From assembly GCF_001182725.1 (NCBI RefSeq), contig NZ_CWHU01000005.1:248001-312000 (forward strand): DNA of 64,000 nt. Reading direction: 5' to 3'. The position numbers and the translations under genes were made by a program. The notes beneath the pieces are model-generated. The model had not been told where the DNA came from and ran no database searches. It was given only the letters and a program-made list of their open reading frames with translations. Origin of the DNA: Anaerococcus jeddahensis (GTDB lineage: Bacteria > Bacillota > Clostridia > Tissierellales > Peptoniphilaceae). Positions 1 to 13,053 of the stretch are shown in pieces (the first letter of the stretch is position 1; each line of letters opens with the position of its first letter).

Positions 1-9
1 GGAGATCTT

Positions 10-546
10 ATGGATTATTACAAATTAAATGTATGTGGACTAGAAAGAAACTTACCAATTATTCAAATTTCAGATAATTTGAAAATTGCATCATTTGTTT
101 TGTTGGGAGATGCGGAGCTTGCAGAAAAAGCAGGTTTAGAACTTAGCAAAAAAGTTGATGCTGATATAATTCTTACAGCAGAAGCTAAGGGAATTTCCCT
201 TGCTCATGAAATTGCAAGAAATATAGGAGAAAAATCATTTGTGGTAGCAAGAAAATCTGAAAAAGCCTATATGAATGATCCGATAAATGTAGAAGTAAAT
301 TCAATTACAACAAAAAACACCCAAAAATTATTTTTGGACTTTAAAGATGTAGAAAAAATAAAAGGAAAAAAAATAGCCCTAGTCGATGATGTCATATCAA
401 CAGGGGAATCTATGAATGCCCTTGAAAGTTTAGTAGAAAAAGCAGGCGGAAAAGTTGTACAAAAACTTGCCATTCTTGCAGAAGGAGATGCAGCGGATAG
501 GGATGATATAATATTTTTAGAAAAACTTCCTATTTTTGAAATTTAA
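10..546 (+). CDS. Phosphoribosyltransferase family protein (adenine phosphoribosyltransferase-like)
   Basis: Likely a type I phosphoribosyltransferase that joins a purine base to PRPP in cytoplasmic salvage. The PRPP-binding motif IALVDDVISTGES is at residues 122-134, preceded by a purine-PRT-like segment (TAEAKGISLAHEIAR, 56-70) and an ARK motif near 80. Length (178 aa) fits the Apt/Xpt class. A GGAG ribosome binding site lies at bases 1-4, so the ATG is well supported. The gene ends just before a terminator that has been split by a small inserted element (585-755). Substrate (adenine, xanthine or other) cannot be fixed from sequence; this clostridial subgroup is often labelled simply as a phosphoribosyltransferase. 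Confidence 0.8.
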   Translation: MDYYKLNVCGLERNLPIIQISDNLKIASFVLLGDAELAEKAGLELSKKVDADIILTAEAKGISLAHEIARNIGEKSFVVARKSEKAYMNDPINVEVNSITTKNTQKLFLDFKDVEKIKGKKIALVDDVISTGESMNALESLVEKAGGKVVQKLAILAEGDAADRDDIIFLEKLPIFEI

Positions 547-584
547 TATAGAAATAACATTAAAAACTTCCATAAATTGGAAGT

Positions 585-755
585 CAGAGCGTAGACAAAG
601 TATGAATGTAGATAATATTTTATTTTAAAATAAAAATTAAGCTACGTACCATCTCGACTAAGTGAGTGAAACGAACGCACGGAGAGATCTCATGAGATTT
701 CTCGACTCACTACGTTCGCTCGAAATGGGCAAATTTTTAGTTTATCAACAGTCTG
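585..755 (+). mobile_element. Family A terminator-inserted MITE-like element, copy A1
   Basis: A 171-bp non-coding element begins CAGAGCGTAGACAAAG and ends TTTATCAACAGTCTG; the ends are imperfect inverted repeats (11 of 15 positions match). It is flanked by two identical 19-bp copies of a terminator hairpin, ACTTCCATAAATTGGAAGT, at 566-584 and 756-774. The interior carries a long imperfect palindrome centred on the ATCTCATGAGAT region near 685-705. A second copy in the opposite orientation, also 171 bp, is at 29587-29757. No ORF of note is inside. Interpretation as a transposon-like insertion with hairpin duplication is inference; the flanking repeats are seen directly. Confidence 0.75.
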
Positions 756-780
756 ACTTCCATAAATTGGAAGTTTTTTA
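756..780 (+). terminator. Rho-independent terminator, right-hand hairpin copy
   Basis: Stem ACTTCC / GGAAGT around loop ATAAATT, followed by TTTTTT. It terminates the phosphoribosyltransferase transcript. The identical left copy at 566-584 is followed by CAGAGC instead of a U-tract, so only this copy should work on the plus strand. Confidence 0.8.
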
Positions 781-792
781 TTGCAAATAAAA

Positions 793-816
793 AGCACTTA
801 TTGTAAAAATAAGTGC
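793..816 (-). terminator. Terminator of mntP overlapping its stop codon
   Basis: Inverted repeat AGCACTTA / TAAGTGCT around an AT-rich loop, followed on the minus strand by a T-rich run (790-780). The stem includes the mntP stop codon. Confidence 0.65.
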
Positions 817-1355
817 TCGATTAATATTTTTGTTCCTAGTATAATCAAAATTATTCCACCAATAAGCTCAGAAATTTGCTTGCTTCTCATTCCTAATTTA
901 TTTCCTATTTTAAAGGCTATTGATGAGAGGATAAAGGTTGTAAATCCTATTATTAAACTTGATGAAAAGATATTTACATCTAAAAATGCAAAGGAAACTC
1001 CGACTGCCATAGCATCAATGCTAGTTGCAATTCCTAGTGAAAAGAGGGATTTTAAACTTAAGCCGTGGCTTATTTCACAACTTGCATCTTTTGATTCCCT
1101 TATCATTTGAAAACCAATTATAAATAATAAAATAAAGGCAACCCAATGATCAATAGCTTTTATTGAATTTGCAAAGCTTGATGCTAGAAAATATCCGAGT
1201 ACGGGCATAAGACCTTGAAAAAATCCAAAACAAAGACCAATGCTAAGGGTATTTTTCATGCTCGTTTCTTTTATTTGAAGTCCTTGGCAGATGCTTGCTG
1301 CAAAAGCATCCATGCTAAGGCCTATTGCTAGTATTAAAATTGAAAAAAGACTCAT
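798..1355 (-). CDS. mntP: Putative manganese efflux pump MntP
   Basis: MntP (former DUF204/YebN) family integral membrane protein that exports Mn2+. Both family signature repeats are present, each with its conserved membrane Asp: LSMDAFAAS (residues 13-21) and ATSIDAMAVG (110-119). About six hydrophobic segments cover the 185 residues, the usual family size. I choose the ATG at 1355 because AGGAG sits 5 nt upstream on the minus strand; an ATG seven codons further upstream lacks a site. I see no yybP-ykoY Mn riboswitch in the short upstream region. It is monocistronic and converges on the phosphoribosyltransferase gene across element A1. Confidence 0.88.
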   Translation of the reverse strand: MSLFSILILAIGLSMDAFAASICQGLQIKETSMKNTLSIGLCFGFFQGLMPVLGYFLASSFANSIKAIDHWVAFILLFIIGFQMIRESKDASCEISHGLSLKSLFSLGIATSIDAMAVGVSFAFLDVNIFSSSLIIGFTTFILSSIAFKIGNKLGMRSKQISELIGGIILIILGTKILIEHLFLQ

Positions 1356-1419
1356 TACTACTCCTTTTTTTACCAAAAGTTATCAACTAAAAAACTATAC
1401 TTGATATTTTTATATAAGC

Positions 1420-1445
1420 AAATAGAAGGCCTTAGCCTTCTATTT
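1420..1445 (-). terminator. Hairpin at the end of the S41 peptidase gene
   Basis: AAATAGAAGGC / GCCTTCTATTT around a 4-nt loop, spanning the stop codon at 1432-1434. The following minus-strand sequence is AT-rich but not a clean U-tract, so termination may be imperfect. Confidence 0.5.
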
Positions 1446-2757
1446 CTATTATTTTTTGTATTATCGGTTGATCTTTTAAATCATCGTACCTGTTTGAATC
1501 TATACTTATATCTGGGTTTGTTTTTTCTATTTCATTTATATAACCTGATTCGGTTAGGCCTATTTCTTTTGGAAATCTTAAGACATAGCCTGAATTTGGT
1601 AAATCAATTTGCAAAGGATCTGTTCCGATTCCTCCACCGTTACTTTGACTTCCTACAAGACTTGCAAGTTTTGTTTCCTTACAAAAACTTGCAAGCATTT
1701 CAGCTGATGAATAAACTGTTGAATCAATTAGTAAATAAATATTTCCCTTAAATTTTATGGAATCTTCGCTTGGATTTATTTGCATTGGGTAGGTTGTGTA
1801 ATAGTCAAATTTTGAAAGAATTTCCTTGGTATCATTTGAAAAATTGCTGGAATTTAAAAATTCGCTCACACCTTCCTTGTATTTTTCTTGGCTTATTACT
1901 TTCTCGTTTAATTGGCCGTCTTTAATAAATGAATAATAATTTGTTGAGTATGGCTTTTCAATTATTAGGGGGAGAATAAAATCTTGCCAATATCTGGAAT
2001 CTCCTCCCGAATTTCCTCTTATATCAATAACCAAGGCTTTTTTATTTTTTATTTTTTTGAGATAAGATTTTAAGATTTTTTGATCTTTTGTGGAATAATC
2101 GTAATTTGTCATAGAATTTATCTTAAAATATCCTATATTTTTATCTATATCTTTTGTTTCTAGATTTTCTGTCTTAAATTCATTTGAATTATTCTTTGAT
2201 TTTCCAACTATATTATTTTTTTCGTTAGGCTTTGGCCCATTTTCATATTGGTTAAATTTTAAAAAGTCATTAATTTTTTTATTATCAAGACCATATCTTC
2301 TTCTTACATTTTCTTTTTCATATATATGGCTTAAATAATGGCGCCAGTCATTTTCTGGCATTTTATAATAAGTTATATACATTTCAACTGCTTGGTTTTG
2401 GTCAATTATTTGTGTGTGGTCGTTGTTAAGCTCATACAAAATTTTATTCATTCTCAAAGCAAAATCCACATCATTTTTTGAATTTCCAATATATTTTTTG
2501 AAATCTTCTTTTTTGCCTAGCCAATCAATACCATTTATTTTCTTATTTATATCAAAATAAGGATAGTAAGTTTCCAAAATATTGTAGGCGTATTCAAAAT
2601 CTTCTATATATTCATCCTTTGTTAAGTCTTTCATTTCTTTTTCTTCAAGGCTTGGAAGATTGATTTTATCAGCATTTTTGGGGCTAGTAAAATTCAAAAA
2701 AGCAAGAATTAATAAAATTGAAATGATAGCAAAGGGAAAAAGTCTTCTTTTTTTCAT
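1432..2757 (-). CDS. Membrane-anchored S41 family peptidase
   Basis: A C-terminal-processing/Tsp-type serine peptidase. An uncleaved N-terminal anchor (residues 7-24, no lipobox Cys) puts the enzyme outside the membrane. The S41 core lies in the C-terminal half: ALVIDIRGNSGG (241-252) is the substrate-strand/oxyanion region and VYSSAEMLA (348-356) contains the likely catalytic Ser351; GSQSNGGGIG follows. Residues 40-200 form a helical region typical of the group with no PDZ domain that I can recognise. It starts 44 nt downstream of the mnmM stop, so it may be the last gene of that cluster or have its own promoter. Substrate is unknown. Confidence 0.82.
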   Translation of the reverse strand: MKKRRLFPFAIISILLILAFLNFTSPKNADKINLPSLEEKEMKDLTKDEYIEDFEYAYNILETYYPYFDINKKINGIDWLGKKEDFKKYIGNSKNDVDFALRMNKILYELNNDHTQIIDQNQAVEMYITYYKMPENDWRHYLSHIYEKENVRRRYGLDNKKINDFLKFNQYENGPKPNEKNNIVGKSKNNSNEFKTENLETKDIDKNIGYFKINSMTNYDYSTKDQKILKSYLKKIKNKKALVIDIRGNSGGDSRYWQDFILPLIIEKPYSTNYYSFIKDGQLNEKVISQEKYKEGVSEFLNSSNFSNDTKEILSKFDYYTTYPMQINPSEDSIKFKGNIYLLIDSTVYSSAEMLASFCKETKLASLVGSQSNGGGIGTDPLQIDLPNSGYVLRFPKEIGLTESGYINEIEKTNPDISIDSNRYDDLKDQPIIQKIIEIEG

Positions 2758-2801
2758 CTAATTATCCTTTCCTTTTTAATTATAACAAATAATATTTTAA
2801 C

Positions 2802-3365
2802 TTACACTTTTCTTATAGAAATTAAGAAGGGAGGGGTGTTAATTTGATTGAAAAAATCATATTTTATAAGTTGAAATTTTTTTTGGTCCAAATTTTTTAG
2901 AAAATCACCAACATATAAAGCCTCGTTTTTGCCAGCTTCATGGCCTGGATAAAAAGTTATTAGGATTAGGCCTTTTTCATTTAAAAGATTTAAAGCCGAT
3001 TCTAGAGATTTTATGACAGACTTATAATTTGTTGTAATTGACTTATCTCCTTTTGGCAAAAATCCTAAATTATAGATAAAAAGGTCGATTTTTTCTCCTA
3101 TATATTTTTCAATATTTTTATGATCATCTAGGATAAATTTAAAATTTTCCCTTTGACCTATAAGTTTTTGGCATCTTTCTTGTGAAAGTTTTTGTATATC
3201 AAAGGCATACAAAATTTTTGGATTTTTCTTATCCAAAATAAACTTTGAATCCTTTCCGTTTCCTGCAGTCATATCGCAGGCCCTTATATTATTCTCAACC
3301 CTGTTTTCTATCAAATAATGGGAAAGTTTTACCGGATTATTTATAATTTCATCAGTATATATCAT
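2802..3365 (-). CDS. mnmM: tRNA U34 methyltransferase MnmM (YtqB family)
   Basis: Class I SAM-dependent methyltransferase of the former rRNA-methylase-like YtqB family, shown in other Firmicutes to turn nm5s2U34 into mnm5s2U34 in tRNA. The SAM motif I is ACDMTAGNGKDS (29-40), and the family signature NLGFLPKGDKSI is at 99-110. Length 187 aa is normal. The start overlaps the end of the ImmA-like gene by 14 nt, so translation is probably coupled and it is co-transcribed with the XRE/ImmA pair, an unexpected partner for a regulator module. Confidence 0.85.
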   Translation of the reverse strand: MIYTDEIINNPVKLSHYLIENRVENNIRACDMTAGNGKDSKFILDKKNPKILYAFDIQKLSQERCQKLIGQRENFKFILDDHKNIEKYIGEKIDLFIYNLGFLPKGDKSITTNYKSVIKSLESALNLLNEKGLILITFYPGHEAGKNEALYVGDFLKNLDQKKFQLIKYDFFNQINTPPFLISIRKV

Positions 3366-3903
3366 GATTTCTTATATCCTTTCCGTTAATATCCTTAAAA
3401 AATCTAGAATCTGCTTCTTCTTTTTTGATTTTCATCCCCATTCTGTGCATTTCATTTAATTTGAAAATCATAAGATTTACATTTACATCATACATAGAGG
3501 CTAGCTGATTGTAGGTGTAGCCTTCTTTTATATCATTTATAAGTTCTTTCTCATCCAAAAGAAGATGGGCTGCAAAAATATTTGCACACAATTCCATTTC
3601 GCTATTTATATCAAAAAGTTCGTATTCAATCAAATTTTCATTTTTTGCCATGTCCCTGTGATAAAGGTCATGGCCTAATTCGTGAGCAAAAACCATATTT
3701 TGAATTCTTCTGTCAACAAAGGGATTGTAAAAGACAAAAGAATTTCTTTTTATAATTTTGTACATGCCCAAAAGCTTTGTATTTTCCTTAAAAGCAATTA
3801 TATTTACCCCTCTTTGAATTAAAATTTCTCTTGGATCTCGGCTGTCATATTTTTTTATTAATTTTTTTACATCATCAAAAATTTGATCGTAGAAAAAAGA
3901 CAT
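3352..3903 (-). CDS. ImmA/IrrE family metallopeptidase
   Basis: Zinc peptidase with HELGH at residues 74-78 and the downstream ligand region MELCANIFAAHLL (103-115), the arrangement of ImmA (ICEBs1) and IrrE (Deinococcus). Family members cleave or destabilise a cognate XRE repressor after a stress signal. Here the partner is the XRE gene 7 nt upstream in the same operon. At 183 aa it is a stand-alone protease domain plus a short C-terminal tail. No integrase, excisionase or phage gene is near, so this looks like a resident chromosomal regulator rather than part of a mobile element. That it cleaves the neighbouring repressor is inference. Confidence 0.85.
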   Translation of the reverse strand: MSFFYDQIFDDVKKLIKKYDSRDPREILIQRGVNIIAFKENTKLLGMYKIIKRNSFVFYNPFVDRRIQNMVFAHELGHDLYHRDMAKNENLIEYELFDINSEMELCANIFAAHLLLDEKELINDIKEGYTYNQLASMYDVNVNLMIFKLNEMHRMGMKIKKEEADSRFFKDINGKDIRNHDIY

Positions 3904-3910
3904 AATTCAC

Positions 3911-4309
3911 CTAATCTTTGTGAGTATTGTATTTTTTATTTTTATTTTTGGCAATATAGTAGGCCTCTTGAATAGAATCAAGAATTGCTTTTTTATCTTC
4001 CTCATCTATTTCTCCACCAGCCATAAGGCCGATTACACCATCAACCATTTCCTTTGCATCCCTTGCTCCCTTGTAGCCGTATTTTTCTCTGGCATTAAGA
4101 ATAAAATTATCCTCATCAGTTACAAGATAATCGTGACTAGTATCTAAAACTTCTGCAAGCTTATCATAAATTTTCCTATATCTTGGTTTTGATTCTCCCA
4201 TTTCATATCTTGAAATAGTTTTTAAAGAAACGCCAACAAGCTTTGCAAGCTCTTCTTGGGTTAAATTTTTATTTTCACGAAGTTGTCTTAACTTAGGTCC
4301 AAAACTCAT
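3911..4309 (-). CDS. XRE family transcriptional regulator
   Basis: N-terminal helix-turn-helix of the Cro/CI type (residues about 8-60; motif LTQEELAKLVGVSLKTISRY) followed by an acidic C-terminal region of about 70 residues. I place the start at the ATG at 4309, which has AAAGGAG just upstream; an in-frame ATG seven codons earlier has none. It is transcribed divergently from dinB and is followed by an ImmA/IrrE protease. Three GACATTAA-type repeats in the 140-nt divergent region are its likely operators, so the protein probably represses both dinB and itself. This is inferred from arrangement; binding has not been shown here. Confidence 0.85.
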   Translation of the reverse strand: MSFGPKLRQLRENKNLTQEELAKLVGVSLKTISRYEMGESKPRYRKIYDKLAEVLDTSHDYLVTDEDNFILNAREKYGYKGARDAKEMVDGVIGLMAGGEIDEEDKKAILDSIQEAYYIAKNKNKKYNTHKD

Positions 4310-4344
4310 ATTTTCTCCTTTAATAGACACTCAAAGGCTTTTAC

Positions 4345-4407
4345 GACATTAAAAGTCTTGACAAAAGACATTAAGCGTCTTAAAATTTAATTAAGTCATT
4401 TAATGTC
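4345..4407. promoter_or_regulatory. Three operator-like 13-bp repeats between XRE regulator and dinB
   Basis: GACATTAAAAGTC (4345-4357), GACATTAAGCGTC (4367-4379) and, on the minus strand, GACATTAAATGAC (4395-4407). The first two start exactly 22 bp apart, two helical turns. The second lies wholly between the -35 and -10 of the dinB promoter. The third overlaps the expected start region of the divergent promoter. The GAC..GTC dyads fit a dimeric HTH repressor, most likely the XRE protein. Confidence 0.65.
4358..4386 (+). promoter_or_regulatory. Sigma-A-type promoter of dinB
   Basis: TTGACA (4358-4363), 17-bp spacer, TAAAAT (4381-4386). The spacer holds the second operator-like repeat, so repressor binding would block RNA polymerase directly. 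Confidence 0.7.
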
Positions 4408-4410
4408 ATA

Positions 4411-4438
4411 ATTATACGTTATTAGTCATTTAGTTCAA
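4411..4438 (-). promoter_or_regulatory. Probable promoter of the XRE-ImmA-MnmM operon
   Basis: On the minus strand TTGAAC (4438-4433), 16-bp spacer, TATAAT (4416-4411). The start point should fall in the third operator-like repeat, which suggests autoregulation. Confidence 0.5.
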
Positions 4439-4448
4439 GGAGGGAAAA

Positions 4449-5687
4449 ATGATTAGAACAATCCTACATTCAGATATGAATTCTTGCTACGCATCAATCG
4501 AAGCTAAATTAAATCCACAATTAAAAAACAAGGCAATGGCAGTTGCAGGCGATCCAAAAAATAGGCACGGGATAATTCTTGCAAAAAGTCAAGAAGCAAA
4601 AATTATGGGAGTAAAAACGGGAGAGGCAATTTGGCAGGCAAAAATTAAATGTCCAAATTTAATTTTAGTTCCTCCTCACTATGAAAAATATTTAGAATTT
4701 TCAAGAAAGGCAAGAAAAATTTATTATTCCTATACAAATAGGGTTGAGCCCTTTGGTCTTGATGAATGTTGGCTTGATGTAAGCGAAAGTTTAAAACTTT
4801 TTGGAAATGGAGAAGAAATTGCTGGTCAAATAAGAGAAAGGATGAAAAAAGAATTGGGAATTACTGTAAGCGTTGGAGTTTCATTTAATAAAATATTTGC
4901 AAAACTTGGTTCAGATTTAAAAAAACCTGACGCAACGACCGTGATAAAAAAAGAAAATTTCAAAGAAATAGTTTGGCCCTTGGATATTTCTTCTATAATT
5001 GGGATAGGAAAGGCAACAAAAAGAAAATTAAATGGAATAGGAATTTACACTTTGGGCGATCTTGCAAAAACAGATTCTGATGCAATAAGAGGAATTTTGG
5101 GAATAAATGGACTTTATTTGTGGCAATATGCAAATGGTCTTGACGATAGGCCGGTAAAAGATTATTCCTACAGGGAAGTAATAAAAACCATAGGAAATTC
5201 ATCAACTCTTGTTGAAGACTTATATACAAATGAGGAAGTCTATAATATTTTTCAAATTTTGGCATTAAATGTTTCAAAAAGACTTAGGGAAGCAAAACTT
5301 TCTTCAATGGGAGTTAAAATTTTTATAAGAGACAATAATTTGTTTTCTTTTGAATTTCAAATGCCAATAAATAATCCAACCCAATCATCCATAATTCTTT
5401 CAGAAAAAGCCATAGAACTTTTTAAGAAAAAATACAAGTGGAACTTTCCCATAAGGGCACTAGGAATTAGGGCAATAAATTTAGTAGACGAAAAAATCCC
5501 AGCCCAAACTGACATATTTTCAGATTATAAAAAAATAGTAAAAAAAGAAAAAATAGACAAGGTTATTTATGATATAAGAAAAAAATACGACAAAAATGTT
5601 TTGACTTTTGCCTCATTAAAAAATAACAAAAAATTTCCAAAAGACAAAACAGAAATAGTAACCCTTCCAAATGGAAGAATTAGATAA
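4449..5687 (+). CDS. dinB: Y-family DNA polymerase (DinB/UmuC type, DNA polymerase IV)
   Basis: Translesion DNA polymerase acting at damaged replication forks. Catalytic carboxylates are Asp9 (HSDMNSCYAS) and Asp105-Glu106 (FGLDECWLDVS). A helix-hairpin-helix thumb (IIGIGKATKRKLNGIGIYTLGDL) precedes the little-finger domain, and QTDIFS about 55 residues from the C-terminus resembles a beta-clamp-binding motif. Length 412 aa is normal for the Gram-positive group. A strong AAGGAGGG site lies 6 nt before ATG. It is transcribed from a canonical promoter overlapped by operator-like repeats next to an XRE/ImmA pair, which suggests damage-inducible expression without LexA; I see no good LexA box here. 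Confidence 0.9.
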   Translation: MIRTILHSDMNSCYASIEAKLNPQLKNKAMAVAGDPKNRHGIILAKSQEAKIMGVKTGEAIWQAKIKCPNLILVPPHYEKYLEFSRKARKIYYSYTNRVEPFGLDECWLDVSESLKLFGNGEEIAGQIRERMKKELGITVSVGVSFNKIFAKLGSDLKKPDATTVIKKENFKEIVWPLDISSIIGIGKATKRKLNGIGIYTLGDLAKTDSDAIRGILGINGLYLWQYANGLDDRPVKDYSYREVIKTIGNSSTLVEDLYTNEEVYNIFQILALNVSKRLREAKLSSMGVKIFIRDNNLFSFEFQMPINNPTQSSIILSEKAIELFKKKYKWNFPIRALGIRAINLVDEKIPAQTDIFSDYKKIVKKEKIDKVIYDIRKKYDKNVLTFASLKNNKKFPKDKTEIVTLPNGRIR

Positions 5688-5712
5688 ATAGGATTTATAT
5701 CCTATTTTTTAT
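5687..5712 (+). terminator. Terminator of dinB
   Basis: AATAGGAT / ATCCTATT around TTAT, overlapping the stop codon and followed by TTTTATT. Confidence 0.75.
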
Positions 5713-5740
5713 TGATAAATTGAAAAAAATATATATAGAC

Positions 5741-5785
5741 GAAAAAAGTTTCTGCTTAGTTTTTATCTAATTAGAAACTTTTTTC
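5741..5785 (-). terminator. Terminator of the VOC-family gene
   Basis: GAAAAAAGTTTCT / AGAAACTTTTTTC around a 19-nt loop, ten nucleotides downstream of the minus-strand gene. The A/T-rich arms supply a U-tract in either direction. Confidence 0.6.
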
Positions 5786-5794
5786 AAAAAAATT

Positions 5795-6202
5795 TTACTC
5801 ATTATCAACTGTAGCAATAATTTGCCAAAAAACCATGTACTTATCTATCAAGGTTGTAAATAATAACTTATTAATTCTTTGAGGTTGCATCAAAACTTTA
5901 GATTCTTGTTTTAATTTTGAATAAGCCTTATATAAATTTTCACTATTTGTTTCTATTACTACTCTTCCGTTATTTCCGCTAACCCAATTTTTGTCATCGG
6001 TAGTGTCAAATAGGTATACATTATTCCCATAAATTTCTAATTTTGAATTATAAATCCTATCTCTAACTTCTTTTGGGAAATTATACATTTCAAAATCAGA
6101 ATATCTGATTAATTTATGAGGTGGATCAAGTTCAAAAATATCGCAATAATATTTTATCGCTTCCAAACATTTTCCATTTTTAAATGATAAGCCAACTGCC
6201 AT
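5795..6202 (-). CDS. VOC superfamily (PhnB/glyoxalase-like) protein
   Basis: A 135-residue single-domain protein with the betaalphabetabetabeta pattern of the vicinal oxygen chelate superfamily. The N-terminal segment resembles PhnB-like proteins (GKCLEAIKYYCDIFEL, residues 10-25, then ...LEIYGNNVYLFDTTDD around 54-70), and the C-terminal half repeats the fold (VVIETNSENLYKAYSKL). The usual acidic and His metal ligands are not obvious, so it may not be an active metalloenzyme. An AAAGGAATTA site precedes the ATG. It is monocistronic and convergent with dinB. Function unknown. Confidence 0.6.
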   Translation of the reverse strand: MAVGLSFKNGKCLEAIKYYCDIFELDPPHKLIRYSDFEMYNFPKEVRDRIYNSKLEIYGNNVYLFDTTDDKNWVSGNNGRVVIETNSENLYKAYSKLKQESKVLMQPQRINKLLFTTLIDKYMVFWQIIATVDNE

Positions 6203-6292
6203 AATAATTCCTTTCTTTATTTAAATTTAACATAAAGGTATAATAAATTCAAGATAATAAATTATGAAAAAAAAATAAAATTGGAGGCGAAA

Positions 6293-7237
6293 ATGAAAAT
6301 TTCTTTAATTGATCCTTTAATTGTTGATGATAAAATAATTAAAAAGCACAAGAAAAAAATTGAGGCTTTGGGCCATGAATTTGAATATTTTGAAAAAAGT
6401 GCATCTTCTGATGATGAAATTATTGAAAGATTGAAAGACAGTGATGTTGCTATTATTACTAATAATAAATTTTCAAAAGATGTTATTGATAATACGGATT
6501 TAAAATTGGTTGACGTAGCTTTTACTGGTTTTAATCATGTTGATATTGAGGCTTGTAATGAAAATGATATTATAGTTGAAAATGCAAGCGGATATTCTGA
6601 CGATTCTGTGGCTGAGCTTGTTATTGGCCTTACAATTTCTATAATGAGAAAATTTGATCAAAATAAAAAAAATATGTTTGAAGATGAATCTTTTAATCTG
6701 CTTGGTCAAATTATTAGGGGAAAAACTGTTGGAATTATTGGTACTGGAAAAATTGGTACAAGAGTTATTGAATTGTTTAAGGCTTTTGGTGCAAATATTT
6801 TGGCCTACAGTCGAAGTGAAAAGGAAAATGTTAAAAATCTTGGGGCAAAATATGTAAGCCTTGATGAGCTTTTGAAAAATTCTGATATTGTTTCTATTCA
6901 CCTTCCTCAAAATGAAAAAACTATTGGATTTATTGGAAAAAATGAGCTTGATCTTATGAAAGATAAGGCGATTTTAATTAATTGTGCAAGAGGTCCTATT
7001 GTTGACAATGATTATTTGGCAAAATTATTGAATGAAGATAAGTTAAGAGCTGGAATTGATGTTTTTGATATGGAGCCTCCAATTGAGGCGGACTATCCTT
7101 TAAGAAATGCAAAAAACGTCCTTCTTACAAATCATGTTGGATTTTTCACTCAAGAAGCTATGGATATAAGGTGCGAAATTGTTTTTGACAACTTGTATAA
7201 GTTTCTTGATGGAAAAATTGTAAATAGAGTGAATTAA
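6293..7237 (+). CDS. D-isomer specific 2-hydroxyacid dehydrogenase
   Basis: NAD(P)-dependent oxidoreductase interconverting a 2-oxoacid and a D-2-hydroxyacid. The Rossmann motif GIIGTGKIGTRVIELF is near residues 145-160; the catalytic triad can be seen as Arg in NCARGPIVD, Glu in IDVFDMEPP and His in TNHVGFF. At 314 aa it has the usual length. The ATG at 6293 follows GGAGG by 5 nt; an upstream in-frame TTG overlaps that site and is rejected. It leads an operon with uridine kinase, GlgB, an unknown protein and ApbE. Substrate (glycerate/hydroxypyruvate, lactate or other) cannot be assigned. Confidence 0.85.
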   Translation: MKISLIDPLIVDDKIIKKHKKKIEALGHEFEYFEKSASSDDEIIERLKDSDVAIITNNKFSKDVIDNTDLKLVDVAFTGFNHVDIEACNENDIIVENASGYSDDSVAELVIGLTISIMRKFDQNKKNMFEDESFNLLGQIIRGKTVGIIGTGKIGTRVIELFKAFGANILAYSRSEKENVKNLGAKYVSLDELLKNSDIVSIHLPQNEKTIGFIGKNELDLMKDKAILINCARGPIVDNDYLAKLLNEDKLRAGIDVFDMEPPIEADYPLRNAKNVLLTNHVGFFTQEAMDIRCEIVFDNLYKFLDGKIVNRVN

Positions 7238-7238
7238 T

Positions 7239-7853
7239 ATGTATACAAAAATTATAGCTATAGCAGGCGGATCTGCTAGTGGAAAATCATCAATAGTTGA
7301 ATATATTAAAAATTATTTTTCAAAAGATTTGTATGTTATCGGCCACGATAATTATTACAAGGCTCATGATGATTTACCTTTTGAAGATAGGGAAAAATTA
7401 AATTATGATAGGCCGGATTCTTTTGATAATGAAATGTTTTTAAAAGATCTTTTGGATTTAAAAGCTGGTAAGGATATTGATATGCCAACTTATGATTATA
7501 ACATTCACACCAGAAGCAAAGAAACCATCCATGTATCTCCAAAAAAAATAATTTTAATTGAGGGGATTTTGGTTTTGTATGATAAAAGAATCAGGGATAT
7601 TTTGGATACTTGTGTATTTATTGACGCAGACAGTGACGTTAGACTTCAAAGAAGAATTTTAAGGGATACCAAGGAAAGATCAAGAAGTTTGGAATCTGTT
7701 TTGACCCAATATATTAAACAAGTTAAGCCCATGCATGAGAAATATGTTGAACCAACCAAAAAATACGCCGACATAATAATTCCAAGAGGTGCAAAAAACA
7801 CAAGAGGAATTGAAATTTTAATTAAGCATATTGAAGATTTGATTGAGGAATGA
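7239..7853 (+). CDS. udk: Uridine kinase
   Basis: Phosphorylates uridine and cytidine to the monophosphates in pyrimidine salvage. Walker A GGSASGKSS is at residues 9-17; NYYKAHDDLPFEDREKLNYD and YDYNIHTR are the family's nucleoside-binding segments; a lid-type arginine cluster RRILRDTKERSR follows near 130. Length 204 aa is normal. It begins 1 nt after the dehydrogenase stop and ends 1 nt before glgB, so it is clearly co-transcribed. Confidence 0.92.
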   Translation: MYTKIIAIAGGSASGKSSIVEYIKNYFSKDLYVIGHDNYYKAHDDLPFEDREKLNYDRPDSFDNEMFLKDLLDLKAGKDIDMPTYDYNIHTRSKETIHVSPKKIILIEGILVLYDKRIRDILDTCVFIDADSDVRLQRRILRDTKERSRSLESVLTQYIKQVKPMHEKYVEPTKKYADIIIPRGAKNTRGIEILIKHIEDLIEE

Positions 7854-7854
7854 G

Positions 7855-9660
7855 ATGGATGTGAAATTGTTTGATGTTGATTATGGAAAAATCGAATCCT
7901 ATTTAAATGGAAATTCTAAAGAAGGCCATAAAATTTTTGGAGCAATAAAAAAAGATGACGGTTATCTTTTTAGGATTTTCGCGCCAAGAGCCGATATGGT
8001 TTATATCAAGGGAGATTTTTCAAATTGGCAAGAGATTCCCATGTTTAAAAATGAAAAATATGGATATTTTTATAAATTTATTAAGGCAAAAATTGGAGAT
8101 TATTATAAATATGTGATTGAATCAAATGGGATGAAATTTGAAAAGTTTGATCCTTATGGAAATTATTTTGATGAATCTCCAGAATTTGCTACAAAAATTA
8201 TCGATACTTCCTATAATTTTTCTGATGAAAAATGGATGGAAAAAAGAGAAAAAAATTTGGATAAGCCTGTAAATATTTATGAAATTCATCCTGGAAGTTG
8301 GTTAAGGTATAATTCTATGCCAAATTTTTTGGATATAGTTGATAAATTAATTTCTTATGTAAAGGATATGGGCTACACCCACATTGAACTTATGCCAATT
8401 ACAGAACACCCATATTATCCTTCTTGGGGCTATCAAGTTTCTGGATTTTTTGCTTCATCTTCAAGGTACGGTTCTATAAATGATTTGCAAAAATTTGTAG
8501 ATCTTTGCCACCAAAATGATATTGGAGTAATTTTAGATTTTGTAATAGTTCATTTTGCGAAAGATTATTATGCCCTAAAATATTTTGATGGTCACAGCCT
8601 TTATGAATCTGATTATGAAGATTTGCAATATTCAGAATGGGGCAGTTTAAATTTTGATTATTCCAAAGGTCATGTAAGAAGTTTTATGAAATCGGCTATC
8701 AATTTTTGGATAGAAAAATGCCATTTTGATGGAGTAAGAATTGATGCTGTTTCTAATATGATTTTTTATGATGGAAATAAAGATAGGGGAGAAAATCCAA
8801 ATAATATTAATTTTTTGAAGGATTTAAATTATAATCTTTCAAAAGATTATCCAAATTTTATGAAAATTGCTGAGGATTCTTCTGCTTATGAATTTGTAAC
8901 TTGTAAAAATTCTAATGATAGCCTAGGTTTTGACTACAAGTGGGACCTTGGTTGGATGAATGATACTTGCAAATATTTTGAAATAGATTCAATAAATAGG
9001 CACATGTATCAAGAAAAAATTAATTTTTCTATGTTTTATTTTTATAGGGAAAATTTTCTCTTACCATTAAGCCATGATGAGGTAGTTCATTTAAAAAAAC
9101 CTATGATTAACAAAATGAATGGTTTTTATGAAGATAGGTTTAAACAGTTGAAATTATTAAATACTTATCAAATGACCCATCCTGGCAAAAAATTAAATTT
9201 TATGGGAAATGAGTTTGCTACTTTTGATGAGTGGGATGAGAATAAATCTTTAAATTGGGATATTTTAAAATATCCAATCCACTCAGCTTTTAAAAATTTT
9301 ATTAGGGATTTAAATTATCTTTACAAGGAAAACCCAAGCTTTTACAAAAATGATTTTGAAGAAAAAGGATTTTTGTGGAAGGTAGTTGATGATAATAAAA
9401 ATTCTGTTTTTGCCTATGAAAGACTTGCAGAAGATCAAAGATTTTTGATAGTATTAAATATGACAAATACTTACAAAAAATCTTATCCTATTTTTTATGA
9501 TGAAGAATTGATTTTTGTTGAAAAAATAAATAATTTGGGTGAAAAATATGGTGGAGATAAATATAAAAGAGAAAATATAAAAATTAGTAAGGGGGAAAAT
9601 CTTAAGCTGGAGCTTTGGGAATATGAGGCTGTGGTTTTTGAAATATTAAAAAATGAGTAG
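7855..9660 (+). CDS. glgB: 1,4-alpha-glucan branching enzyme
   Basis: Introduces alpha-1,6 branches in glycogen. An N-terminal CBM48-like domain (about 20-130; FSNWQEIPMFKNEKYGYF) precedes a GH13 barrel. The catalytic regions are recognisable: DFVIVHF, FDGVRIDAV (nucleophile Asp), KIAEDSS (acid/base Glu) and LSHDEVVH. The 601 residues are shorter than many GlgB proteins because the extra N1 module is absent. I use the ATG at 7855 with GAGGAA upstream, 1 nt after the udk stop. No glgA, glgC, glgD or glgP is in the window, so this branching enzyme is separated from the rest of the glycogen pathway. Confidence 0.9.
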   Translation: MDVKLFDVDYGKIESYLNGNSKEGHKIFGAIKKDDGYLFRIFAPRADMVYIKGDFSNWQEIPMFKNEKYGYFYKFIKAKIGDYYKYVIESNGMKFEKFDPYGNYFDESPEFATKIIDTSYNFSDEKWMEKREKNLDKPVNIYEIHPGSWLRYNSMPNFLDIVDKLISYVKDMGYTHIELMPITEHPYYPSWGYQVSGFFASSSRYGSINDLQKFVDLCHQNDIGVILDFVIVHFAKDYYALKYFDGHSLYESDYEDLQYSEWGSLNFDYSKGHVRSFMKSAINFWIEKCHFDGVRIDAVSNMIFYDGNKDRGENPNNINFLKDLNYNLSKDYPNFMKIAEDSSAYEFVTCKNSNDSLGFDYKWDLGWMNDTCKYFEIDSINRHMYQEKINFSMFYFYRENFLLPLSHDEVVHLKKPMINKMNGFYEDRFKQLKLLNTYQMTHPGKKLNFMGNEFATFDEWDENKSLNWDILKYPIHSAFKNFIRDLNYLYKENPSFYKNDFEEKGFLWKVVDDNKNSVFAYERLAEDQRFLIVLNMTNTYKKSYPIFYDEELIFVEKINNLGEKYGGDKYKRENIKISKGENLKLELWEYEAVVFEILKNE

Positions 9661-10123
9661 AAATAAAGAAGCTATCAATCTTTCTTGGTTGGTGGAAAAA
9701 TGGACTATTTGGGATAATTCATATTTGAAAAATATTTGGCTAAATCTCGATACTTTAGATTTGGTTAGGATTAATGATGAAATTAATGACAATGAAGATA
9801 TTGAAGAATCCTATATTGATATTGAAAATAATATGGACGAATTTGTTTGTATGCCTGGTCGTGAGGCTGTGAATGAAAAACTTGCTAGGGAAGTTTTTAT
9901 GGATTATTTGGATAGCGTTGATAAGGATAGGCTATTTGAAAATTATAATGAATATTCTGCTGATGAAGAATTTTTGGATTTGATTTATGAGCTAGGTCTT
10001 GAAGATAAACTTCAAGATTTTAGGGATAAAGTTGCAGGATCTATCCTTTTAAACTGGGCTAATGAAGAAGATATAAAAGTAAACAAAGACATGGAAGTAA
10101 TAGATTTATATGGTAGGAATTAG
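9653..10123 (+). CDS. Uncharacterised protein, possibly UPF0158-like
   Basis: A 156-residue acidic protein (pI low, many Asp/Glu) overlapping glgB by 8 nt. The C-terminal segment FLDLIYELGLEDKLQDFRDKV followed by a helix ending NWANEEDI has the spacing seen in UPF0158 proteins (LGLE..W..FRDEA...WCEENGI), which is the only similarity I can suggest. The N-terminal half (LSWLVEKWTIWDNSYLKNIWLN) is hydrophobic-aromatic but not membrane-spanning. No catalytic motif is visible. Its fixed place between glgB and apbE says it is co-expressed with them, not what it does. Confidence 0.6.
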   Translation: MSRNKEAINLSWLVEKWTIWDNSYLKNIWLNLDTLDLVRINDEINDNEDIEESYIDIENNMDEFVCMPGREAVNEKLAREVFMDYLDSVDKDRLFENYNEYSADEEFLDLIYELGLEDKLQDFRDKVAGSILLNWANEEDIKVNKDMEVIDLYGRN

Positions 10124-10125
10124 TT

Positions 10126-11274
10126 TTGAAAAATAAAAAAATAAAATTTAGTTGTTTAGTGCTAGGCTTGTGTTTAGCGCTTTCATCTTGTAATAAAAAA
10201 GTTGAAAAAGTGAAATCTGAAGCAAAAAGCAATATAAAAAATGAAATAAGCCAAGAAAATATTAAAAGTTCAAATATTTCAAATGAAGAAGGACTAAAAA
10301 AATATGATGTAACAATTTATGATTATTTTGACACAGTTACAATTTTCACAGCTTATTGTAAAAATGAAGAAGAATTTAATAAGTACAAAGACTTAGTTGA
10401 TAAGAGAATGGCTGAATACCATAAACTTTTTAATAATTATGATAAATTCGAAAATGTAAATAATTTTACAACTATAAATGAAAATGCTGGAAAAGAAAAG
10501 GTTAAGGTTGATCAAAAAATAATCGACATAATTAAAGAAGGTAAAAAATGGTACGATGAAACTGATGGCGATATTGACATTGCCTACGGTAGGGTTTTAA
10601 AAATTTGGCTAGATTTAAGAGAAGCTTACGAAAAGGACAAAGATAAAATTAAACTTCCAAGCGATAAAGAATTAGAAGAAGCCGCAAAGCATAAAAATAT
10701 TGATGCAATTGAAATTGATGAAAAAAATAAAACTGCCTACATCAAGGACAAGGAAGTTCAAATTGATATTGGTGGAATTGGAAAAGGCTATGCAACAGAG
10801 CTTATAAAAAGAGAATTAATGGAAAAGGGATTAAAAACAGGAATTTTATCAGTCGGTGGAGATGTTGCAATAATTGGAGAAAATCCAACAAGAAAATCTG
10901 GGCTTTTCAAAATAGCAATAAAAGATCCTTCTCTTTCAGAAGAACATCCTTACGCTGCAATAGTTTCTGTAAAAAATACTTCAGTTGTAACTAGTGGGGA
11001 CTATGAAAGATACTTTGAATTAAATGGTAAAAGATATCATCATATTATAGATCCTGCAACAAATTATCCATCTACAAAATTTAAATCAGTTTCTGTAATT
11101 ACTGATGATATTGCTAACGCAGACGCTCTTTCAACAGCACTTTTTATAAAAGATTTAGAAGAGGGAAAAAAATTAGCTAAAAAATTTAATGCAGAAGCCT
11201 ACTGGATTGATCAAGACGGAAATACATTTAAAACTGACAATTGGGACAAATATGAAATAGATAATGAAAATTAA
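10126..11274 (+). CDS. apbE: FAD:protein FMN transferase (ApbE), lipoprotein
   Basis: Extracytoplasmic flavin transferase that covalently attaches FMN to Thr/Ser of exported or membrane redox proteins (for example Rnf or Nqr subunits). A lipoprotein signal ends in LALSSC (Cys about 22). ApbE motifs follow: DGDIDIAYGRVLKIW, DIGGIGKGYATELIKREL, LSVGGDVAIIG, VVTSGDYERYFELNGKRYHHIIDP and DALSTALFI. Length 382 aa is typical. The start is a TTG at 10126, 2 nt after the previous stop, with AGGA 8 nt upstream; no ATG is available before the signal peptide. Target flavoproteins are not in this window. Confidence 0.9.
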   Translation: MKNKKIKFSCLVLGLCLALSSCNKKVEKVKSEAKSNIKNEISQENIKSSNISNEEGLKKYDVTIYDYFDTVTIFTAYCKNEEEFNKYKDLVDKRMAEYHKLFNNYDKFENVNNFTTINENAGKEKVKVDQKIIDIIKEGKKWYDETDGDIDIAYGRVLKIWLDLREAYEKDKDKIKLPSDKELEEAAKHKNIDAIEIDEKNKTAYIKDKEVQIDIGGIGKGYATELIKRELMEKGLKTGILSVGGDVAIIGENPTRKSGLFKIAIKDPSLSEEHPYAAIVSVKNTSVVTSGDYERYFELNGKRYHHIIDPATNYPSTKFKSVSVITDDIANADALSTALFIKDLEEGKKLAKKFNAEAYWIDQDGNTFKTDNWDKYEIDNEN

Positions 11275-11291
11275 GATGCGAATTTGCATAT

Positions 11292-11488
11292 ATGATTGTA
11301 TACAACTCCCCAAGCACGAATATCTAACTCCAAAAATTGTTGATTTCTAAATTTCAAAATTCTAAAATCGCAAACTCGCTAAGGCTCAAGCAGTGCGATT
11401 TTTGACGAATTTTTAAATTTGAAATCAAATCAATTTTTTCCGTATGAAATTCTTAGCATGGGAATTTGTATACTTTGTTAAAATAATA
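11292..11488 (+). mobile_element. Family B terminator-inserted MITE-like element, copy B1
   Basis: A 197-bp element aligned along its length with copies B2 and B3 (shared blocks CAAGCACGAATATCT, ATTGTTGATTTCTAAATTT, AAAATCGCAAACTCGCTAA, TTGAAATCAAATCAATTTTT and a GTATACTTT right end). Its left end is diverged (ATGATTGTATACAA where B2 has CAGAGCATAGACAA). Flanks are 18-bp copies of the apbE terminator hairpin: AGATGCGAATTTGCATAT at 11274-11291 and AGATGCAAAATCGCATCT at 11489-11506, with several mismatches. The interior folds on itself into one long imperfect hairpin. The decayed ends and flanks suggest an older insertion. Confidence 0.7.
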
Positions 11489-11515
11489 AGATGCAAAATC
11501 GCATCTTTTTTTTAT
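11489..11515 (+). terminator. Terminator of apbE, right-hand hairpin copy
   Basis: AGATGC / GCATCT around AAAATC, followed by a run of eight T. The left copy overlapping the apbE stop codon has lost pairing on one side and has no U-tract. Confidence 0.8.
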
Positions 11516-11574
11516 TTAGATATTCAAAATTTTTTTCAACTAGTATATAATATTATCTATATTAGGAGGTAAGA

Positions 11575-13053
11575 ATGGTAGAAAATGCTTTTAATAATGA
11601 TAAATATATAAAAATCCAATCGGAAAGAATTGAAGAGAGGATTAAAGAATTTGATAAATTGTACCTAGAATTTGGTGGAAAATTATTTGATGATGCTCAC
11701 GCATCAAGAGTTTTGCCAGGATTTTTGCCTGATTCTAAATTGCAAATGCTTAAAAAATTAAAAGATATTACAGAAATTGTAATTGTAATTAATGCAAATG
11801 ATATTGAATCAAATAAAATAAGATCAGATCTTGATATAGGTTATGATAGTGAGGTTTTAAGGTTAAAAACATCTTTTGAAGATTTGGGATTTTTTGTAAA
11901 TTCAATTGTAATAACCCAATTTGATAACCAACCATCAGCAATAAAATATGGAAAATATCTTGATAGTTTAAATATAAAAAATTATAGAACTTATGATATT
12001 GAAGGTTATCCAAATAATATTCCTCACATTATAAGTAAAGATGGATTTGGAAAAAATGATTATATAGAAACTACAAGAGATTTGGTAGTTGTAACAGGTC
12101 CAGGACCTGGAAGTGGAAAGCTTGCTACTTGTCTTTCACAAATGTATCTTGAAAATGAAAGAGGAGTAAACGCAGGTTATGCAAAATTTGAAACTTTTCC
12201 AGTTTGGAACCTTCCTTTAAAACATCCGGTAAATATTGCCTATGAAGCTGCAACAGCAGATTTAAATGATGTAAATATGATTGATCCTTATCATCTTGAA
12301 GCTTATGGAGAAACAACTGTAAATTATAATAGGGACGTTGAAGCTTTTCCAATTTTAAAACAAATGTTTGAAAAAATTTCTGGATCTTGCCCTTACAAAT
12401 CACCAACAGATATGGGAGTAAATATGGTTGGTTTTTGTATAGATGACGAAGAAAAAACTATAGAAGCTAGTAAAAATGAAATAATAAGAAGATATTATAA
12501 CGCTCTTGTTGACTATAAACTTGCAAAATCAGATTATAAGCCAGTAGAAAAAATTGAAATTTTGATGAGTGGTTTAAATCTTGAAAAAAGCGACAGGAAA
12601 GTTGCAGAAAAAGCAAGAGAAAAACAAAAAGAAAAAAATGCAGAAATTTTTGCAATTGAACTTGGCAAAGGAAAAATTGTTACAGGAAAAAAATCAAAAT
12701 TGATGTCATCACCTGCAGCATGTATTTTAAATGCCTTGAAAGAAATTTCTGGAATAAATGATGAAATACCATTAATATCCCCACACATCCTAGAGCCTGT
12801 AATAAAACTAAAAGAAGATATATTAAAAGAAAGAGACGAATCACTTTCTGTAAATGATGTATTGATTGCTCTTTCAATATCAGCAACAACAAATCCAGTT
12901 AGTCATTTGGCTCTTGAAAATTTAAATAAATTAAAGGGACTTGACGCTCATTCAACAATAATTTTGGACGAAAGCGACAAAAAAACTCTATTAAAAATGC
13001 ATTTTAATTTCACCCAAGATCCTGTTTTATCACAAGGACATTTAAATATTTAA
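11575..13053 (+). CDS. DUF1846 domain-containing protein
   Basis: A 492-residue cytoplasmic protein recognised as the DUF1846 (UPF0371) family, which is found in many fermentative Firmicutes. Characteristic stretches are IQSERIEERIKEFDKLYLEFGGKLFDD at the N-terminus (shown here in part), ARVLPGF-like ASRVLPGF near residue 42, and VTGPGPGSGKLATCLSQMY near 175, a P-loop-like phosphate-binding segment. The C-terminal part carries SPAACILNALKEI. A strong AGGAGG site precedes the ATG and TATAAT lies at 11546-11551. Structures of family members suggest a nucleotide-binding enzyme, but no reaction is established. Confidence 0.85.
   Translation: MVENAFNNDKYIKIQSERIEERIKEFDKLYLEFGGKLFDDAHASRVLPGFLPDSKLQMLKKLKDITEIVIVINANDIESNKIRSDLDIGYDSEVLRLKTSFEDLGFFVNSIVITQFDNQPSAIKYGKYLDSLNIKNYRTYDIEGYPNNIPHIISKDGFGKNDYIETTRDLVVVTGPGPGSGKLATCLSQMYLENERGVNAGYAKFETFPVWNLPLKHPVNIAYEAATADLNDVNMIDPYHLEAYGETTVNYNRDVEAFPILKQMFEKISGSCPYKSPTDMGVNMVGFCIDDEEKTIEASKNEIIRRYYNALVDYKLAKSDYKPVEKIEILMSGLNLEKSDRKVAEKAREKQKEKNAEIFAIELGKGKIVTGKKSKLMSSPAACILNALKEISGINDEIPLISPHILEPVIKLKEDILKERDESLSVNDVLIALSISATTNPVSHLALENLNKLKGLDAHSTIILDESDKKTLLKMHFNFTQDPVLSQGHLNI

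Follow-up and report, generated by a model that had tools for sequence, protein, structure and literature searches.

The window that we have analyzed is a 64,000 nt stretch of the Anaerococcus jeddahensis genome (G000:C5:248001-312000; the genome has 1.9 Mb and is 99% complete). It contains a gene for a short repressor of the XRE family (xre), followed by a gene for an ImmA/IrrE-type protease (immA), both transcribed away from dinB, which codes for a Y-family translesion DNA polymerase. We consider, with a probability of about 0.7, that this module is dedicated to the induction of a single translesion polymerase, independently of LexA; it looks like a stand-in for the classical SOS response, reduced to one gene. 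Part of this reading comes from the sequences: the anatomy of the locus, its conservation, the position of the operators, the co-variation of repressor and operator, and a dinB which has been relocated together with its operators. Repressor binding, cleavage, the cut site and the damage signal are suggested by analogy with the ImmR/ImmA, DdrO/PprI and CapH/CapP systems.

The gap between xre and dinB has 139 bp and contains two divergent promoter-like sequences and four dyads (Table 1). An earlier sequence-only reading of this stretch had described the divergent arrangement of the pair and dinB, which is borne out by the gene calls and by matches to PF01381 and PF06114. It had also placed three repeats in the shared region, one filling the dinB spacer and one at the divergent start, and the coordinates agree exactly: GACATTAA is found at 4345-4352 (+), 4367-4374 (+) and 4400-4407 (-). 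The whole window has five copies of GACATTAA (3.9 are expected by chance as a mean), three of them inside 63 bp. The dyad AGAC-N7-GTCT, with at most one mismatch, gives nine matches in the window while 8.2 are expected. Since this count is at chance level, it is the conservation across Anaerococcus dinB promoters that decides.

Such conservation is extensive. All 31 Anaerococcus genomes contain an orthologue of the repressor (66–100% identity), and in 26 of the 27 which have this dinB the polymerase gene is divergent from xre-immA; apparently broken dinB copies are found in G013, G011 and G015. The closest named relatives, as judged by dinB identity, are Anaerococcus ihuae (95%), A. hydrogenalis (94%) and A. 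senegalensis (89%). Alignment of the intergenic regions gives the pattern TTGACA-nnnGAC-N7-GTCn-TATAAT: GAC occupies positions 4–6 of the dinB spacer in 26 of 26 promoters and GTC positions 14–16 in 25 of 26, while the bases between them are variable. Locus L021, with a broken dinB and the promoter TTGATA...TAAACT, was excluded here; it still has GAC-N7-GTC. A second conserved block, AGTCATTTATTGTCT, followed by TATAAT on the other strand, marks the xre promoter.

Two naturally occurring cases are informative. In the 27th genome (G022), dinB is found on a separate contig, next to a sigma-factor-like gene. The relocated dinB retains both the main operator, in its spacer, and the second one, and xre-immA retains its own operator, as would be expected for a trans-acting repressor. 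The other case is that of the genomes which lack this dinB and have xre-immA, at loci L018 (G029), L019 (G027), L020 (G028) and L030 (G010). The xre-side operator, the second one in Table 1, persists in all four, with one base different in L020. Three of them have lost the operator on the dinB side; in L020 this operator has one base changed and the -35 is weakened. Persistence on the xre side and decay on the other side in the absence of dinB separate the two operators by function.

Table 1. Features of the xre-immA/dinB locus, in window coordinates
Feature	Position	Strand	Remarks
xre, XRE repressor, 132 aa	3911-4309	-	Helix-turn-helix (HTH) 1-62; two C-terminal helices; loop beside motif GLMAGG; predicted cut L95-M96
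immA, ImmA/IrrE-type M78 metallopeptidase, 183 aa	3352-3903	-	HELGH; downstream of xre, same direction
dinB, Y-family translesion DNA polymerase	4449-5687	+	
dinB promoter, TTGACA-17-TAAAAT	-35 4358-4363, -10 4381-4386	+	
Main putative operator, AGAC-N7-GTCT	4366-4380		Fills the dinB promoter spacer exactly
Second putative operator, imperfect dyad	4395-4407		At the predicted xre-immA transcription start (inferred start site)
Third dyad	4344-4358		Directly upstream of the dinB -35
Fourth dyad, weaker	4325-4339		Close to the xre start codon
xre-immA promoter, TTGAAC-16-TATAAT	TTGAAC 4438-4433, TATAAT 4416-4411	-	Half-site AGTC 4424-4427 in spacer
mnmM, MnmM tRNA methyltransferase	2802-3365	-	Start overlaps the end of immA

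Across the clades which bear the module, the dinB spacer keeps a dyad, and its sequence differs from clade to clade (g and f are genus and family codes). The half-site is GAC in Anaerococcus and in families f15 and f18, cGCAA in g2 and in one half of the dyad in g4 and g32, cGCAT in g16, tGC(A/T/C)A in g7, g8 and f8, and GAAG in g26, g27 and g31, with one exception, GCAG in L124. The presence of dyads centred in the spacer has a combined p of 7e-7 for 19 module promoters, in a test which ignores the relatedness of the rows. When only one promoter is taken from each clade (n = 13), p is 4.7e-4 for our own selection, which included the strongest g2 promoter. It rises to 0.0016 if the median promoter of each clade is used, and to 0.014 if the weakest is used. 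Seven control promoters, with neither module nor LexA box, give a p of 0.63. If the centre is left free, the palindrome test is mostly non-significant for single promoters. Three promoters which fit poorly (G067, G095 and G073) were retained in the combined test.

The half-sites also follow the repressor. The recognition region (residues 28–44) correlates with the operator once the divergence of the remaining protein is taken into account (partial Mantel r 0.385, N = 18); 5000 permutations gave no value as high (p 2e-4). On balance, the centring of the dyads in the spacer and the tracking of the half-site by the recognition region, in promoters chosen by best hexamer match, are evidence at the sequence level for binding of the dyads by the XRE proteins.

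The sequence-only reading referred to a single genome, and its scope must be widened: the module is spread over the order and the class. In the order, an XRE match is found in 131 of 249 genomes (E up to 1e-12) and this dinB in 64 (E up to 1e-80). The divergent module is present in 51 of these 64; 25 of the 51 are outside Anaerococcus, in 13 other genus codes and three other family codes. Of 391 genomes sampled from the class, 141 have this dinB. The search for ImmA in the class covered the first 80 of the 134 dinB-bearing genomes not included in earlier searches: 22 have profile matches, which lie within 6.5 kb of dinB in 16 cases and are divergent within 1.3 kb in 11.

There are also variants of this arrangement. 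In L139 (G055:C3:1400-5800), two tandem dinB copies, with 59% and 49% identity to the query, are directed away from xre-immA, and a dyad-bearing promoter precedes the first of them. In L128 (G057:C18:20800-24000), the gene after xre-immA has the same orientation and matches another Y-family polymerase (29%), and the dinB orthologue of this genome is on a different contig.

The relationship between this module and LexA is best seen at the dinB promoter. No GAAC-N4-GTTC box, even with one mismatch, is present within 260 bases upstream of dinB at the Anaerococcus loci. This box is often found at the promoter of dinB genes without the module: L005-L009, L077, L142, L143 and nine loci from the class. 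The 92 dinB loci in our tree are distributed as follows: 54 have only the module, 17 only the LexA box, one has both (L156) and 20 have neither (Fisher 1.5e-7, which ignores relatedness). Thus 17 of the 37 loci without an adjoining module have a LexA box, and module and box are largely mutually exclusive. Four of the loci with neither (L154, L157, L159 and L169) have an ImmA 3.6–5 kb away, and L074 is the relocated dinB. We chose these 92 loci ourselves, leaving out L021, L028, L029, L038 and L039, which are broken or near-duplicates, as well as further records of genomes already included and the other polymerase subfamily. Parsimony requires a minimum of five changes between the module and LexA-box states, the loci with neither or both being uncounted; of the 89 inner branches of the tree, 39 are well supported and 32 are open.

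We have also searched 130 genomes of the family for the DNA-binding domain of LexA (PF01726): none of the 31 Anaerococcus genomes has it, and 79 of the other 99 do. The LexA model gives some match in 20 of the 31, over the cut-off in three (G009, G012 and G023). Among the matches listed, the one in G009 covers profile positions 15–199, all others begin at position 57 or later, in the peptidase half. The module coexists with LexA in relatives: apart from Anaerococcus, 21 genomes of this family bear the module, and each of them has a LexA match over the cut-off. The switch therefore probably did not originate as a substitute for a LexA that had been lost. With somewhat less than even confidence, we suggest that translesion synthesis in much of the Clostridia is governed through an interchangeable slot of the dinB promoter, in which LexA and XRE-ImmA would have been swapped about five times (by parsimony on a partly unresolved tree), and that a one-gene mutagenesis response, possibly RecA-independent, would be all that is left of the SOS response in Anaerococcus, which lacks LexA.

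The number of targets appears to be small. Among the 12 exact operator-like places listed in this genome, only the dinB copy is in a promoter. Nine of the others fall within open reading frames (ORFs) of 90 aa or more, another is a terminator-like hairpin (L065) and the last is intergenic (L056). The complete pattern TTGACA-N3-GAC-N7-GTC-N-TANAAT was searched in the 31 Anaerococcus genomes with up to three mismatches; among the matches listed, the only exact one in this genome is dinB, and the other genomes may have further targets. The looser AGAC-N7-GTCT, if one mismatch is allowed, shows no enrichment (295 matches versus 424 for the reversed control). The repair gene examined for operators was recA, at 30 of its 31 loci: none of these upstream regions has an exact operator or a GAAC-N4-GTTC box, six have a dyad with one mismatch. 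In L190, L199, L202 and L203 such a dyad is at -26 before recA; this may be either chance or a clade-specific recA operator. Since recA lacks an exact operator and no second promoter of this kind is found in the genome, we provisionally consider the module as a one-target switch, not as a damage regulon. The sequence-only reading is thus partly supported: the synteny, the operators, the co-variation, the relocated dinB, the absence of the LexA DNA-binding domain and a motif similar to that of ImmR favour a pair placed for the control of dinB without LexA.

Both proteins resemble known repressors and proteases. The XRE protein matches PF01381 (1.6e-15) and the DNA-binding domain of ImmR (fold match, Z 12.1). 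In its structural model (mean predicted local distance difference test, pLDDT, 85), the HTH domain (1–62) is followed by a helix (65–96), a loop (97–102) and a second helix (103–130). Nearly all fold matches cover the HTH only. A search of the sequences of solved structures gives only HTH-type proteins, one of which is aligned near full length (6.5e-9). An S24 peptidase domain, present in self-cleaving repressors such as HdiR, as in the CI type, is not found by Pfam in the 132 aa of XRE, which match only HTH-bearing models. Residues G94, L95, G98 and G99, at the end of the first helix and the start of the loop, are invariant in 17 of 17 aligned XRE proteins. They form part of a conserved motif, G-L-[M/F]-[A/S]-G-G, which contains L95-M96; a distant XRE (L126) does not have it. 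ImmR of ICEBs1 has predicted helices at 64–88 and 103–126 and is cut between them, at F95-M96 (PMC8960796). By analogy, L95-M96, with the same residue numbers, is the predicted cut site.

PRK03103 and PRK01810, both models of DNA polymerase IV, give the dinB protein similar scores, below the cut-off in each case. ImmA matches PF06114 (8.4e-12), M78 is its sole Pfam domain, and H74, E75 and H78 are invariant in 16 rows. The best match of its model (mean pLDDT 79) is CapP (7t5t; Z 15.9, root-mean-square deviation 2.7, 157 aligned residues); PprI with single-stranded DNA (ssDNA) gives Z 12.3. The last helix ends at 154, and residues 163–183 have low confidence. A search of solved-structure sequences found no relatives of ImmA, only two irrelevant weak matches.

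The following mechanism may be proposed. XRE, probably as a dimer, would bind the GAC-N7-GTC dyads. The dyad between -35 and -10 would block the dinB promoter, and with the one at the opposite start the repressor would limit its own synthesis and that of immA. A damage-linked signal would lead ImmA to cut XRE at or next to the inter-helix loop, so that the DNA-binding part would lose the last helix; the operators would then be emptied and dinB would be made. Fresh repressor made alongside dinB would reset the switch. Candidate sensors are a RecA-dependent one, as reported for ICEBs1 (PMC10233336), direct recognition of ssDNA, or metal ions.

Pairs of this family are known. In the ImmR-ImmA system of ICEBs1 (Bacillus subtilis) and in immRA of TnSmu1, a short XRE repressor (127 aa for ImmR) adjoins an M78-type protease, the repressor sites are in the regulatory regions of two counter-transcribed promoters, and the cut is between two C-terminal helices (PMC8960796, PMC10233336), as predicted here. 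Those systems control mobile elements, whereas the Anaerococcus pair belongs to the core chromosome and is beside dinB. DdrO-PprI (IrrE) of Deinococcus controls DNA repair genes independently of LexA by cleavage of the repressor (PMC8072749, PMC10904395), as would be the case here. On the other hand, DdrO has a regulon which includes recA, and we have found one target. CapH-CapP, associated with CBASS, has the protease of closest fold, and ssDNA stimulates cleavage of its repressor (PMC10233336, PMC10904395); nevertheless, it governs an anti-phage suicide system and the CapP chain is longer. The control of YqjW-type polymerases by LexA is also similar: there too a Y-family polymerase gene has an operator within or overlapping its promoter, and yqjW is SOS-induced in B. 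subtilis (PMC6511836). In that case the repressor family, the box and the inactivation are different, and it is this control which is swapped at orthologous dinB genes between lineages. Among the literature matches listed, there is no XRE/ImmA pair coupled to dinB; subscription papers are mostly outside that search, so that absence is unproven. The literature searched has no example of such a pair as a conserved switch of the core genome which adjoins a translesion polymerase gene and alternates with LexA in one promoter slot.

Several points weigh against a damage-induced switch for dinB. The open reading frames of xre-immA are intact in the four genomes where this dinB is gone, so the pair may have a further role or target as well, or the losses of dinB may be recent. 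Only 5 of the 19 spacers are individually palindromic at p < 0.05, and the test depends on the choice of promoters, which were selected by best hexamer match. L123 and L124 share the recognition region and differ in their spacer half-sites. In the order, 12 of the 64 dinB-bearing genomes do not have xre beside dinB, and in G049 it has the same direction. All our counts refer to related genomes. The predicted cut is at the end of a helix in the XRE model, while the ImmR cut is reported in a linker. Finally, the ImmA of Anaerococcus, with 183 aa versus 240–278 residues for the PprI and CapP chains (278 for CapP in the structure), has no room for the GAF-like domain which PprI requires for activation by ssDNA (PMC10904395), and the activating signal is uncertain for this reason.

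This last point leads to the alternative which survives best, that the same repressor-protease switch acts on dinB in response to another signal, such as metal ions, oxidative stress or a peptide. The shortness of ImmA is shared by the mobile-element homologues discussed in PMC8072749, a review which speculates on zinc for such short proteins. We consider this alternative rather unlikely, since the sole target found is a translesion polymerase and the characterized relatives respond to damage (PMC10233336, PMC8072749, PMC10904395).

It is much less probable that the pair derives from a former prophage or conjugative element and that its job is or was the control of immunity, with dinB as an incidental neighbour. 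Such pairs are common on mobile elements. A second pair, with 39% identity to the first, is in fact present in nine Anaerococcus genomes; the single neighbourhood examined, L103 (G008:C1:532000-542000), has a recombinase-like and a sigma-like gene close to it. This second pair has near-identical matches in these nine and in several other genomes of the family, and it looks like a recently spread element. Its recombinase-like neighbour indicates that XRE-ImmA pairs are mobile in other settings, which also counts against the main reading. Nevertheless, xre is found in all 31 genomes with no mobile genes recognized around it, the operator is fixed in the dinB promoter across families, and the relocated dinB has kept its operators. 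The sequence-only reading had noted the lack of mobile-element genes nearby, and we agree: as judged by reading the translations of ORFs of 50 aa or more in 1-12000 and of 150 aa or more in the remainder of the window, with seven proteins scanned against families, no recombinase, relaxase or phage structural genes were recognized.

A toxin-antitoxin-like pair, with the protease as toxin, is hardly credible: XRE-COG2856 pairs were formerly listed among the candidates for such systems, and both proteins are weakly similar to the spr1629 repressor/antitoxin model, but their scores are below 30 bits for a cut-off of 335 and there are operator-like dyads in the dinB promoter. LexA-type control, by an unrecognized LexA or a RecA-triggered self-cleaving repressor, could only appeal to the matches to the LexA model mentioned above, and it is largely refuted by the lack of a LexA DNA-binding domain in the 31 genomes, of LexA boxes at Anaerococcus dinB and at the 30 recA regions, and of an S24 domain in XRE.

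If the module is indeed a damage-induced switch for dinB, it would provide a defined LexA-free control of induced mutagenesis and would extend pairs of the ImmR/ImmA type from mobile elements to core DNA-damage biology. Several bacteria which bear the module are human-associated. The co-varying operator-repressor pairs form a natural data set for the recognition rules of XRE proteins, and the circuit is small enough for its reconstruction in a laboratory strain.

Two other features of the window may be mentioned. The mnmM gene is a probable operon partner of xre-immA, outside the switch. A perfect 19 bp palindromic repeat, ACTTCCATAAATTGGAAGT, is found twice, 190 bp apart, at 566-774, after a phosphoribosyltransferase gene. 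This pair of repeats is possibly a small insertion at a terminator; a 27-base piece of the stretch between both copies (701-727) has a single occurrence in the window.

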